The notes under the pieces: model-generated
The model's input: only the letters and a program-made list of their open reading frames with translations
Databases searched by the model: none
What the model was told of the DNA's origin: nothing
In this document: positions 3,220-53,194 of the stretch, one piece after another
Position numbering within the stretch: position 1 is the first letter of the stretch
Layout of the letters: the number at the start of each line of letters is the position of its first letter
Made by a program: the position numbers and the translations under genes
Source of the DNA: Clostridiales bacterium
GTDB taxonomy: Bacteria > Bacillota > Clostridia > Christensenellales > Aristaeellaceae
Length of the DNA: 64,000 nt
Assembly (NCBI GenBank): GCA_017569285.1
Contig: CP069419.1
Span: forward strand, 1,984,001 to 2,048,000
Direction: 5' to 3'

Positions 3220-4200
3220 ATGATTTTTGCGGACAAATTAATGGATCTCAGGAAAAAGAACGGTTGGTCCCAGGAGGAACTGGCGGAGAAGCTGAACGTC
3301 AGCCGGCAGGCAGTATCCAAGTGGGAAAGCGCACAGTCGGTGCCGGATATGAGCCGGATTATCCAGCTGTCAGAGCTGTTCGGTGTCAGTACGGATTACC
3401 TGCTGAAGGATGAAATGGAGCAGGCGGAGGTTTCCCCGGAAACCGCACCGGACAGCCTGATCCGGACTGTGGATATGGAAGAAGCCAACGCGTTCCTGAA
3501 GACCAAGGAAGAGAACTCCCGCCGGGTGGCCCTGGGCGTGCTGCTCTGCATCCTCTCCCCGGTCGCGCTGATCCTGCTGGGCGGCGCGCAGGCGATGGGC
3601 CTGCTGGACTGGTCAGAGAATATGGCAGGCGGAATCGGACTGGTGGTGATGATGCTGATGATCATCCCCGCGGTCGGGATGCTTGTGGTATCCAATCTCC
3701 GGATTTCCCGCTTTGAATATATGGAAAAGGAACCGTTTGAAACCCTGTACGGCGTTACCGGAATGGTGAAAGACCGGAAGGAGAAATTCCAGCCGGTCCA
3801 CACCCGGTACATGATGACCGGTATCATGCTGTGCATCGCGTCCACCATTCCGCTGTTCATCAGCCTGGTTTTCGGCAACGGGGAGAACTTCCTGCAGGTG
3901 GTGGGAATCGCATCCATCCTGCTGCTGGCGGCCATCGGCGTGATGCTGATCATCCGCGTGTCCATCATCTGGGGAAGCTACCAGCAGCTGCTGGAAGAGG
4001 GCGATTACACCCGTGAGAACAAGGAAAGCAACGGAAAGATCGGCCTTATCAGCGGCGCTTACTGGTGCGTGATTGCCGCGGCCTACCTGGCCTGGAGCTT
4101 CATCGGAGACAGCTGGAAAATCAGCTGGGTGATCTGGCCGGTTGCCGGCGTCCTCTTCGGCGCGGTGATTGGCATTACAAAAGCGCTCCGGAAGCGGTAA
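3220..4200 (+). CDS. XRE-family helix-turn-helix regulator with C-terminal membrane domain
   Basis: Residues 1-65 form a Cro/C1-type DNA-binding domain (KNGWSQEELAEKLNVSRQAVSKWE). Residues ~105-326 contain about six hydrophobic segments typical of integral membrane helices, so this is a membrane-tethered regulator. Such proteins are common in clostridia and are thought to sense envelope conditions or partner proteins; the signal here is unknown. The ATG at 3220 is preferred over one ten codons upstream because AAAGGCGG lies about eight bases before it. It is transcribed alone and ends at a strong terminator. Confidence 0.85.
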   Translation: MIFADKLMDLRKKNGWSQEELAEKLNVSRQAVSKWESAQSVPDMSRIIQLSELFGVSTDYLLKDEMEQAEVSPETAPDSLIRTVDMEEANAFLKTKEENSRRVALGVLLCILSPVALILLGGAQAMGLLDWSENMAGGIGLVVMMLMIIPAVGMLVVSNLRISRFEYMEKEPFETLYGVTGMVKDRKEKFQPVHTRYMMTGIMLCIASTIPLFISLVFGNGENFLQVVGIASILLLAAIGVMLIIRVSIIWGSYQQLLEEGDYTRENKESNGKIGLISGAYWCVIAAAYLAWSFIGDSWKISWVIWPVAGVLFGAVIGITKALRKR

Positions 4201-50448: not shown

Positions 50449-50476
50449 TCCCTGAATGACGAAAGGAGATATCCCC

Positions 50477-51322
50477 ATGAAGAAACTGATTGCCCTGCTG
50501 ATTGCCTTGGCTCTGACCCTGTCCCTGACGGCTGCCCTGGCCGATACGATTACGATCGCGGTTCCCAACGACCCCACCAATGAAGGACGCGCCCTCCTGC
50601 TGCTGCAGAGCCAGGGAGTCCTGACCCTGAAGGAAGGCTCCGGCCTGGAAGCCACCAAGGGTGATATCGAATCCTCCATCGTGGACATTGAACTGGTTGA
50701 AGTCGAAGCTGCCCTGGTTCCCGAAATCAAGCAGGATGTGGACTACGCCATCATCAACAACAACTACGCCCTGCAGGCGGGCCTGAATCCCGTAGAGGAC
50801 TCCCTGCTGATCGAAAGCGCGGATTCCCCCTACGTCAACGTGGTCAGCGTGAAGGAAGGCAATGAGAATTCCGATGAGGCCAAGGCGCTCGCCGCTGCCC
50901 TGCAGAGCCAGAAGGTCGTTGACTTCATCAACAACACCTATGCCGGCGCCGCGGTCGCGACCGTGACGGAAATCACTGACGGCTTTGACGCGACCGTTGA
51001 CTATGAAGCGCTGAACGGCAAGACCATCACCATTGCGGCTACGCCCGTTCCCCATGTGGAAGTGCTGAAGATCGCCGCGGAAATCCTGGCTGAAAAGGGC
51101 ATCACCCTGGATGTCAAGGAAGTAACCGACTATGTGACTCCCAACGAGTTTGTTGAGAATGGCGACGTGTTCGCGAACTACTTCGCGCACCAGCCCTACC
51201 AGGATTCCTTCAACGCCGGCAACGGCACGCACCTGGTCACCATCGCCGGCATCCACGTGGAGCCCATGGCCCTCTACGGCGGAAAGCAGGCGGACCTGGC
51301 TGCCCTTGGAATCGCCAAGTAA
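50477..51322 (+). CDS. metQ: Circularly permuted MetQ/NlpA-family methionine-binding protein
   Basis: This 281-residue binding protein belongs to a methionine ABC importer with the metN and metI that follow. Its two halves are in reverse order compared with MetQ. Residues 22-163 are the normal C-terminal part (TITIAVPNDPTNEGRALLLL through SADSPYVNVV and VVDFINNTY). After an ~18-residue linker, residues 182-281 are the normal N-terminal part (TITIAATPVPHVEVL, VTDYVTPN, ANYFAHQPYQDSFN, IHVEPMALYGG). The total length is that of one MetQ, so this is a true permutation and not a duplication. A signal peptide ending TAALA is present but no lipobox cysteine. The leader upstream has a possible attenuator. 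Confidence 0.9.
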   Translation: MKKLIALLIALALTLSLTAALADTITIAVPNDPTNEGRALLLLQSQGVLTLKEGSGLEATKGDIESSIVDIELVEVEAALVPEIKQDVDYAIINNNYALQAGLNPVEDSLLIESADSPYVNVVSVKEGNENSDEAKALAAALQSQKVVDFINNTYAGAAVATVTEITDGFDATVDYEALNGKTITIAATPVPHVEVLKIAAEILAEKGITLDVKEVTDYVTPNEFVENGDVFANYFAHQPYQDSFNAGNGTHLVTIAGIHVEPMALYGGKQADLAALGIAK

Positions 51323-51369
51323 TTGACATCTTAAGCGGGAACGGTTATCATCATACCTGTGGAATATGA

Positions 51370-51410
51370 CACACCGGCAGCGCCTTTGCCGCCGGTGTGC
51401 TTTCGTGTTT
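51370..51410 (+). terminator. Partial terminator between metQ and metN
   Basis: Stem CACACCGGC/GCCGGTGTG is followed by CTTTCGTGTTTT. Such a hairpin would lower metN-metI relative to metQ, as is common for binding-protein operons. Confidence 0.65.
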
Positions 51411-51432
51411 TGAGAAATATGGGGAGACTGCC

Positions 51433-52485
51433 ATGATTGAGCTGCGGAACCTGAGTAAGAACTTCGTCACAGCGGACGGGCCGGTGGATGCGCTGAAGCA
51501 TGTCAACCTGACCATCCGGGACGGGGACATCTATGGAATCATCGGCATGAGCGGCGCCGGGAAAAGCACCCTGGTCCGCTGTATCAACATGCTGGAGCGG
51601 CCGACGGAAGGCTCGGTCGTCTGGGACGGTACAGACCTGGGCTCCCTGAGCGAGAAGCAGATCCAGCAGGTACGCCACCAGATCACGATGATCTTCCAGT
51701 CCTTCAACCTGCTGATGCAGCGTACCTGCCTGGAAAACATCATGCTGCCGCTGAAGCTGATCCATATGCCCCGGGCGGAGGCGCGGAAGCGGGCCATGGC
51801 CCTGCTGGAAACCGTCGGCCTGCCGGACAAGGCCAACTCCTATCCGGCCCAGCTGTCCGGCGGCCAGCAGCAGCGAATCGCCATCGCGCGGGCGCTGGCA
51901 ACGGATCCGAAGGTGCTGCTGTGCGATGAGGCCACCAGCGCGCTGGACCCGAAAACCACCCACGCGATCCTGGAGCTGATCCGCGAGATCAACCAGAAAA
52001 TGGGGATCACCGTCATCGTAATCACCCACCAGATGAGCGTGGTGCAGGAGATCTGCAACCGCGTGGCAATCCTCGAAAACGGCAGCGTGGTCGAGGAAGG
52101 CGAGGTCAGCGATATCTTCAGCAATCCCCGGGCGGAGGCGACCAAGGCGCTGGTGTATCCGGACATGGCAGAGGGCATGGATTCCTTCGGCACGGCGCAC
52201 CAGCAGATGGTGCGGCTGGTCTTCCAGGGCGCCGGCGCGGCGACAACCCCGCTGATTGCTTCCATGGCGATCGAGTGCGGCATCGCGGCGAACATCCTGG
52301 CTGCGACCACGCGGACGCTGGGCGGTAAGGTATACGGCAATATGCTGCTGAACATTCCCGGCGGGCCGGATGAGCTGGCCACCGCGGTCAAATTCCTGAA
52401 GAAGACGCCGAACGTCACCGTCCAGGTGGACGTGGAATACGATGCGGAATCGGCGGAAGGAGAGGAGGCGGAGCCGCGTGGGTGA
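51433..52485 (+). CDS. metN: Methionine ABC transporter ATP-binding protein
   Basis: The 350-residue ATPase has Walker A GMSGAGKST, the signature LSGGQQQR, Walker B VLLCDEATSALD and the H-loop ITHQMS. Residues ~265-345 form the NIL domain that binds methionine and inhibits transport when methionine is high. The ATG at 51433 is chosen because GGGGAG lies nearby and an earlier ATG at 51397 has no ribosome site. Its last codons overlap the metI start. Confidence 0.95.
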   Translation: MIELRNLSKNFVTADGPVDALKHVNLTIRDGDIYGIIGMSGAGKSTLVRCINMLERPTEGSVVWDGTDLGSLSEKQIQQVRHQITMIFQSFNLLMQRTCLENIMLPLKLIHMPRAEARKRAMALLETVGLPDKANSYPAQLSGGQQQRIAIARALATDPKVLLCDEATSALDPKTTHAILELIREINQKMGITVIVITHQMSVVQEICNRVAILENGSVVEEGEVSDIFSNPRAEATKALVYPDMAEGMDSFGTAHQQMVRLVFQGAGAATTPLIASMAIECGIAANILAATTRTLGGKVYGNMLLNIPGGPDELATAVKFLKKTPNVTVQVDVEYDAESAEGEEAEPRG

Positions 52486-53194
52486 TTATATCGCGACATA
52501 CTATAACCCGGATAAAATCGCGAAGGCATGGAGCGTGATCCAGGCCGACTTCCTGCGGGAAACCGGCGTCACGCTGTACATCACGCTGATGGCGACGCTG
52601 TTCGCCATCATCATCGGCCTGCCGCTGGGTGTGATCCTGGTGACGGGCGACAGCAAGGGAATCCATCCGCTGCCCAAGCCCCTGATGGCTTTCCTCAACG
52701 GGATGATCAACCTGCTTCGTTCCGCGCCCTTCATCATCCTGATCGTGGTGCTGATGCCCATCACCCGCGCGATCGTGGGGAAAGCGGTCGGAAACGCTGC
52801 GGTCATCGTTCCGCTGATCATCGCCGCGTTCCCGTTTGTGGCGCGGCTGGTGGAGGGCTCCCTGCGTGAGGTGAACCCGAATATCGTGGAGATGTCCCTG
52901 TCCATGGGCGCGACCACCTGGCAGACGGTGATGCATGTGATGCTGCCGGAGAGCGTGCCGAGCCTCATTACGAGCTTTACCACAGCGATTACCACCATCC
53001 TCGGCTACACCGCAATGTCCGGCGCCGTCGGCGGCGGCGGACTGGGCAACCTGGCCATCACCCAGGGCCAGCAGCGGTACAACCAGGCGGTACTGCTGGC
53101 AGCGCTGATCGTACTGGTGATCCTGGTCCAGGTGTTCCAGAGCGTCGGTACCCACCTGGCGGCGAAGGCGGACAAGCGGCTGAAAAACAAATAA
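52478..53194 (+). CDS. metI: Methionine ABC transporter permease
   Basis: The 238-residue permease has five hydrophobic helices and the EAA-type motif VEMSLSMGATTWQTVMHVMLPES that docks on MetN, plus GYTAMSGAVGGGGLG near the end. The GTG at 52478 overlaps the end of metN by eight bases and follows GGAGG. It completes the metQ-metN-metI importer. Confidence 0.94.
   Translation: MGDYIATYYNPDKIAKAWSVIQADFLRETGVTLYITLMATLFAIIIGLPLGVILVTGDSKGIHPLPKPLMAFLNGMINLLRSAPFIILIVVLMPITRAIVGKAVGNAAVIVPLIIAAFPFVARLVEGSLREVNPNIVEMSLSMGATTWQTVMHVMLPESVPSLITSFTTAITTILGYTAMSGAVGGGGLGNLAITQGQQRYNQAVLLAALIVLVILVQVFQSVGTHLAAKADKRLKNK

Follow-up and report, generated by a model that had tools for sequence, protein, structure and literature searches.

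A circularly permuted methionine-binding protein MetQ in Clostridia and the probable repeated origin of its topology

The window analysed here, a stretch of 64,000 nucleotides from a Clostridiales bacterium of the Aristaeellaceae (GenBank GCA_017569285.1, contig CP069419.1, positions 1,984,001 to 2,048,000), carries the genes metQ, metN and metI on its forward strand. The metQ gene (50477-51322), identified by open reading frame calling and Pfam, encodes a protein of 281 amino acids; the ribosome-binding site AAAGGAGA, rated good, lies 5′ of its ATG at 50477, and an alternative in-frame ATG is situated upstream at 50456. The protein begins with a signal peptide (50477-50542) that has no lipobox and ends in ALA, with a predicted cleavage site before D. 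It is followed by the canonical C-terminal half, now first (50534-50956), which by alignment contains the methionine-contact positions R38, N96, and N121, by a new linker of residues 161-183 (50957-51025; delimited by Pfam edges) bearing the type A motif DG[YF]DxxVDYxxLxG, and by the canonical N-terminal half, now last (51026-51307), with the contact positions Y219, F236, H238, and Y241. Downstream, metN (51433-52485) encodes an ATPase with a C-terminal NIL domain (best NCBIfam match ABC_MetN, 352.6 bits, under the cut-off of 499.7), and metI (52481-53194), whose start codon is tentative, encodes the permease (best NCBIfam match PRK10782 MetI, 166.2 bits, under the cut-off of 212).

A single Pfam family, PF03180 (MetQ/NlpA), was found in the window MetQ, with 234.4 bits against a cut-off of 27, in two stretches of non-canonical order: model positions 93-233 at 50534-50956 (E 7.1e-43) precede model positions 1-94 at 51026-51307 (E 1.4e-25). 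Both halves constitute the sole PF03180 matches in the 3.27-Mb, two-contig genome. TIGR00363 likewise matched in two stretches (156.6 bits, under the curated subfamily cut-off of 228.85), as did each of the 22 distinct PDB sequences found by phmmer, and the swapped order was visible in both printed phmmer alignments. When aligned to Escherichia coli MetQ, the two halves scored 282 and 127, the best of 500 shuffles reaching 64 and 58, respectively, and the whole protein scored 392 with its halves swapped back compared to 282 unswapped. These analyses confirmed that 50477-51322(+) encodes a MetQ with its halves in reversed order. They also bore out the further details of the original prediction, namely that the protein has the length of a single MetQ, that its second half corresponds to the MetQ N-lobe, and that a new linker lies at residues of about 164-181, within the 161-183 given by the Pfam edges.

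Relatives of the locus were collected by scanning 84,980 species genomes, and the best 80 of 590 were used. The C-half preceded the N-half in 80/80 of these loci, and metN was located downstream of the permuted metQ in 74 of them. Genomes among the best 80 include Faecalibacterium prausnitzii APC923/61-1, Faecalibacterium sp. An122, Oscillibacter sp. ER4 and Oscillibacter sp. MSJ-31 (titles without 'MAG'), many gut or rumen MAGs, and three Treponema MAGs. The same order was present in four further genomes of the window's genus (G026, G066, G091, G354). Within the window's family, the form represented by the window, type A, occurred in at least 25 of 100 genomes, the window's own counted; one of the copies included, at locus L069 (4153-4992, minus strand), has a shortened N half. 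A second form, type B, occurred in at least 13 of the 100 (14 genes); one of these copies, at L061 (4438-5112, plus strand), is broken by a stop. Full-length type A matches with E < 1e-115 were found in 9/297 genomes of the order, 16/341 of the class, and 3/348 of the phylum; each of these counts includes the window genome. In four of the six genomes reached via the loci, including F. prausnitzii and Oscillibacter MSJ-31, the permuted protein is the only MetQ, and in the other two a canonical MetQ exists beside it; several MetQs per genome are common in the window's family. The fetched set comprised 132 distinct permuted MetQs (115 type A, 16 type B, and the single protein L203) and 65 canonical ones. 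Because sequences of types A and B served as queries, the ratio of 132 to 65 is no estimate of frequency. The fit to E. coli MetQ was better with the halves swapped in 132/132 permuted proteins and better unswapped in 65/65 canonical ones.

This distribution bears on the concern, raised with the original prediction, that a sequencing or assembly join at about 50,970 had wrongly put together halves of two ordinary MetQ genes. The window genome is indeed one assembly, but the same order in 80/80 of the best 80 of 590 loci, in the four genomes of the genus, and in at least 25/100 genomes of the family, together with an intact frame, a conserved linker, and purifying selection on the permuted metQ, makes such an artefact next to impossible, and it was rejected because independent genomes share the permuted order. 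The permuted MetQ is thus a widespread form present in many gut bacteria and not an oddity of one genome; the original prediction had proposed looking for the same block order in other genomes, where it proved to be widespread and probably of more than one origin.

An AlphaFold model of the window MetQ, built with 37 type A sequences, reached a pLDDT of 89.5 and a pTM of 0.83, and the linker region (residues 161-183) was modelled confidently, with block means of 94-98. Foldseek comparisons of this model with solved MetQs covered 81-148 columns (TM 0.27-0.45 by query, rmsd 1.1-4.5 Å); a sequential aligner faced with a permuted chain should give such partial coverage of about one half, the aligned part not being printed. 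The type A linker is nearly constant in length (gap 21-26, median 22), and its motif, DG[YFWHL]Dxx[VIL]DYxxLxG, occurs in 89/115 type A proteins and in none of the 82 remaining MetQs. Linkers of type B exceed this length (30-40, median 32) and differ in motif. The new chain ends sit at the first lobe-to-lobe crossing of the canonical chain. In the proposed architecture, the permuted chain would start, after the signal peptide, at the strand following this first crossover, run through the canonical C-terminal half and the conserved linker of about 23 residues that connects the former C- and N-termini, and finish with the canonical N-terminal half. Fold, clam-shell closure around methionine, and delivery to MetNI would be retained, the changed feature being the exit point of the chain ends and hence of the N-terminal tether.

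The genes metN and metI adjoin the window metQ at 51433-53194, in agreement with the original prediction. More generally, metN was situated within 2.6 kb downstream of the permuted metQ in 119/132 cases, upstream in 4, and was not found in 9, so that the permuted metQ is mostly the first gene of its operon; for canonical metQ, metI lies upstream in 52/65, which makes metQ mostly the last gene. The canonical order metN-metI-metQ is retained at the type B loci L201 and L202, and at L203. In the window, the gap between metQ and metN (51323-51432, plus strand) contains a G+C-rich hairpin (z −2.0) that is possibly an attenuator. A near-consensus promoter-like element, TTGACA-17-TATCAT, was also noted in this gap, directly at the metQ stop, with the strong hairpin 5′ of metN. 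A search of the operon region around the window metQ gave neither a riboswitch nor a T-box. Among 71 loci scanned, two, L140 and L124, possess a T-box leader 5′ of the permuted metQ, with an AUG after GAAC that we take to be the specifier; the L140 leader lies at 3629-3878(+), 44 bases from the metQ start, and that of L124 at 3301-3552(+). On the opposite strand of L124, a match to the TwoAYGGAY RNA was observed at 3643-3807.

Regarding the binding site, PMC6739813 lists R156, N213, N238, Y81, F98, H100, and Y103 as the residues that hold methionine in Neisseria meningitidis MetQ; by alignment, their equivalents in the window protein are R38, N96, N121, Y219, F236, H238, and Y241. Position N121 corresponds to E. 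coli N229, an asparagine whose loss lowers methionine binding more than 10^5-fold. All seven residues of this list are invariant in 115/115 type A proteins. In type B (n = 16), R38, N121, and Y219 are invariant, F236, H238, and Y241 are kept in 15/16, and T or S occupies the N96 position; measured against the same list, L203 differs solely by W instead of Y219. The ratio dN/dS for permuted metQ was about 0.13, 0.16, and 0.21 in three pairs. Taken together, we are highly confident that the product of this gene works as the methionine-binding component of a MetNIQ importer, with a circularly permuted chain, binding and transport being predicted from these features. Counting against this explanation are the short Foldseek alignments, the negative riboswitch and T-box result for the window's operon region, the failure to find fused intermediates among 262 lobe-bearing ORFs of 258 loci, the scores of the window MetQ and MetN below the NCBIfam curated cut-offs, and the weak stimulation of MetNI by lipid-free N. 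meningitidis MetQ, given that the window protein cannot be lipidated. A permuted protein that no longer serves methionine transport, having acquired another ligand or a sensor role, could account for the replacement of N96 by T or S in type B. Nevertheless, E. coli MetQ itself has T there, so the absence of an N213 equivalent was no longer taken to indicate a different ligand; type A keeps all seven listed contacts, and two type A operons have a T-box with an AUG specifier, which leaves this alternative very improbable. The original prediction that the protein should be functional appears sound, as judged from the kept contacts, the confident AlphaFold model, and the downstream metN-metI.

The window MetQ contains no cysteine at all, the lipobox cysteine included, and thus cannot be a lipoprotein; LspA is encoded in the window genome. 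By pattern counts, which are approximate, a lipobox is present in 3/38 permuted and 5/40 canonical MetQs of the window's family, and in 75/94 permuted and 22/25 canonical MetQs outside it, so within the fetched set the lipobox approximately tracks the host family and not the permutation. We rejected the idea that permutation caused the lipobox to be lost, since most canonical MetQs of the window's family have none either. In PMC8416018, the N-terminal lipid tether of MetQ is described as important for docking on MetNI, and the secreted, lipid-free N. meningitidis MetQ barely stimulates its MetNI. This raises the question of how MetQs without a lipobox keep near the pump; an uncleaved signal, an outer membrane, or mere concentration may hold the lipid-free permuted proteins there.

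For the phylogenetic analyses, the halves were aligned separately and the alignments joined, and a 72% identity filter reduced the 197 proteins to 86 representatives, of which 39 were permuted and 47 canonical. The MetQ tree (86 rows) requires three changes for the permuted state: the 33 rows of type A make up a single clade (100/99), type B falls within another group of canonical MetQs, and L203 stands elsewhere again. Counting starred branches only, three changes are forced in the quick MetQ tree and two in the careful one, and one-change trees made up 0% of 200 bootstrap trees. The tree of MetN (60 rows), whose gene is not permuted, also needs three changes, two of them forced, and constraining A and B to one clade, with L203 left aside, cost 80 log units (AU p 0.0167). 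Because the MetQ and MetN trees and the AU test separate A from B, at least two origins of the permuted state, both at the same hinge, are probable. We consider at least two independent permutations of MetQ likely, and perhaps three, with the break each time where the chain first crosses between the lobes: one gave type A (in Clostridia, passed to Treponema), another type B, and a possible third L203, which stands alone. That third event is no more than a candidate, since L203 is long-branched and comes from one genome; among 40 genomes of its family, no L203-like protein was found beyond L203 itself. The trees might instead be misled and A and B share one permuted ancestor, given that they are alike in cut point and swapped order and both are mostly arranged as metQ-metN-metI, that the AU p of 0.017 is moderate, and that the starred branches of the careful tree force only two changes. 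Against this, A stands apart from B in both trees and the AU test, no bootstrap tree has one change, the linkers differ in median length (22 and 32) and motif, and L201 and L202 of type B keep the canonical gene order; we judge a single permutation improbable, although less so than the other alternatives weighed here.

Type A was also detected in 6/79 genomes of the Treponema genus group to which the genome of locus L110 belongs, five of them below E 1e-115 and one cut by a contig end. At L247, L248, and L249 of this group, the permuted metQ lies among other genes on contigs of 98-153 kb, adjoined by metN-metI in two of the three cases and without them in L248. The two Treponema representatives group together within type A in the MetQ and MetN trees. 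We take the Treponema type A metQ as a transfer from Clostridia; contamination of individual MAGs remains conceivable.

Circular permutation can arise via gene duplication. A model of permutation by duplication appears in PMC3320104, and canonical metQ genes in tandem on one strand, within one operon, were found at L195 (two, 15 bases apart), L200 (three), L232 (two), and L032 (two). These adjacent genes are seen as raw material for such a process, in which tandem duplication would be followed by trimming; fission and fusion may offer an alternative route. No fused N-C-N-C or C-N-C intermediate was present among 262 lobe-bearing ORFs of 258 loci. Long ORFs in L168 and L196-L198 were discarded as duplication intermediates, since they turned out to be either a frame extended too far or a fusion to a different binding-protein domain. 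In L196 (3367-5088, minus strand) and L197 (2946-4685, minus strand), a different amino-acid-type binding-protein domain, recognized by eye, lies 5′ of a canonical MetQ; these single ORFs, beside metN and metI, would be two-receptor fusions. The halves might also derive from two different MetQ paralogues fused to each other instead of from one permuted gene, as many genomes of the window's family hold several MetQs and the single-lobe trees, with few columns, are poorly resolved. Nevertheless, in the N-half tree as in the C-half tree, type B goes with the same canonical group, each tree requiring one change when L203 is set aside, and type A is separate from that group; on this agreement, the chimera is disfavoured and has, in our view, a slim chance of being correct.

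Few ABC importers are structurally as well studied as MetQ-MetNI, and in the permuted form the N-terminus has shifted from one end of the fold to the hinge while, by our functional prediction, binding site and pump are retained. The permuted MetQ hence offers a direct way to ask what drives a change of topology, whether the site of the tether is important, and by what route permutations spread. It amounts to a natural experiment on how a binding protein can be rewired and yet, as predicted, keep working. What surprises most is its probable recurrence; if the independent origins are true, the permuted topology would be a repeatedly reachable, tolerated, perhaps favoured state and not a frozen accident. 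Permuted binding proteins also score badly in order-dependent annotation and fold searches.

When compared to canonical MetQ/NlpA of E. coli and N. meningitidis, the window protein has two homologous halves, contacts kept with one N/T difference from E. coli, and MetN and MetI as partners, but differs by its reversed halves, new conserved linker, and missing lipobox. Canonical MetQs of its own family (e.g., L003-L032) share the fold family and often also lack the lipobox, whereas their N half comes first and their operon is usually metN-metI-metQ. The original prediction knew of no natural permutant in this family, and nothing contradicted it: no report was found in the open-licence literature, as available, on permuted MetQ, NlpA, or solute- and substrate-binding proteins, and in the available part of the CIRPIN preprint, where MetQ was looked for, no permuted MetQ was found. 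On these sources, the permuted MetQ is new, and a permuted binding protein of another class is already known: TpMglB-2 (Tp0684) of Treponema pallidum, presented in 2016 as a natural circular permutant, 'Type Ic / Cluster Bc' (PMC4990184). The window MetQ lies outside Type Ic, its best sequence and fold matches being MetQs. Brautigam et al. suggest that the TpMglB-2 permutation might be an adaptation to anchoring; for MetQ, the lipobox in the fetched set follows the host family instead. Both are natural circular permutants of substrate-binding proteins and both occur in treponemes and Gram-positives; TpMglB-2, in contrast, has a type I sugar-binding fold of another family, and its permuted portion is poorly conserved, while both halves of the permuted MetQ match canonical MetQ well.
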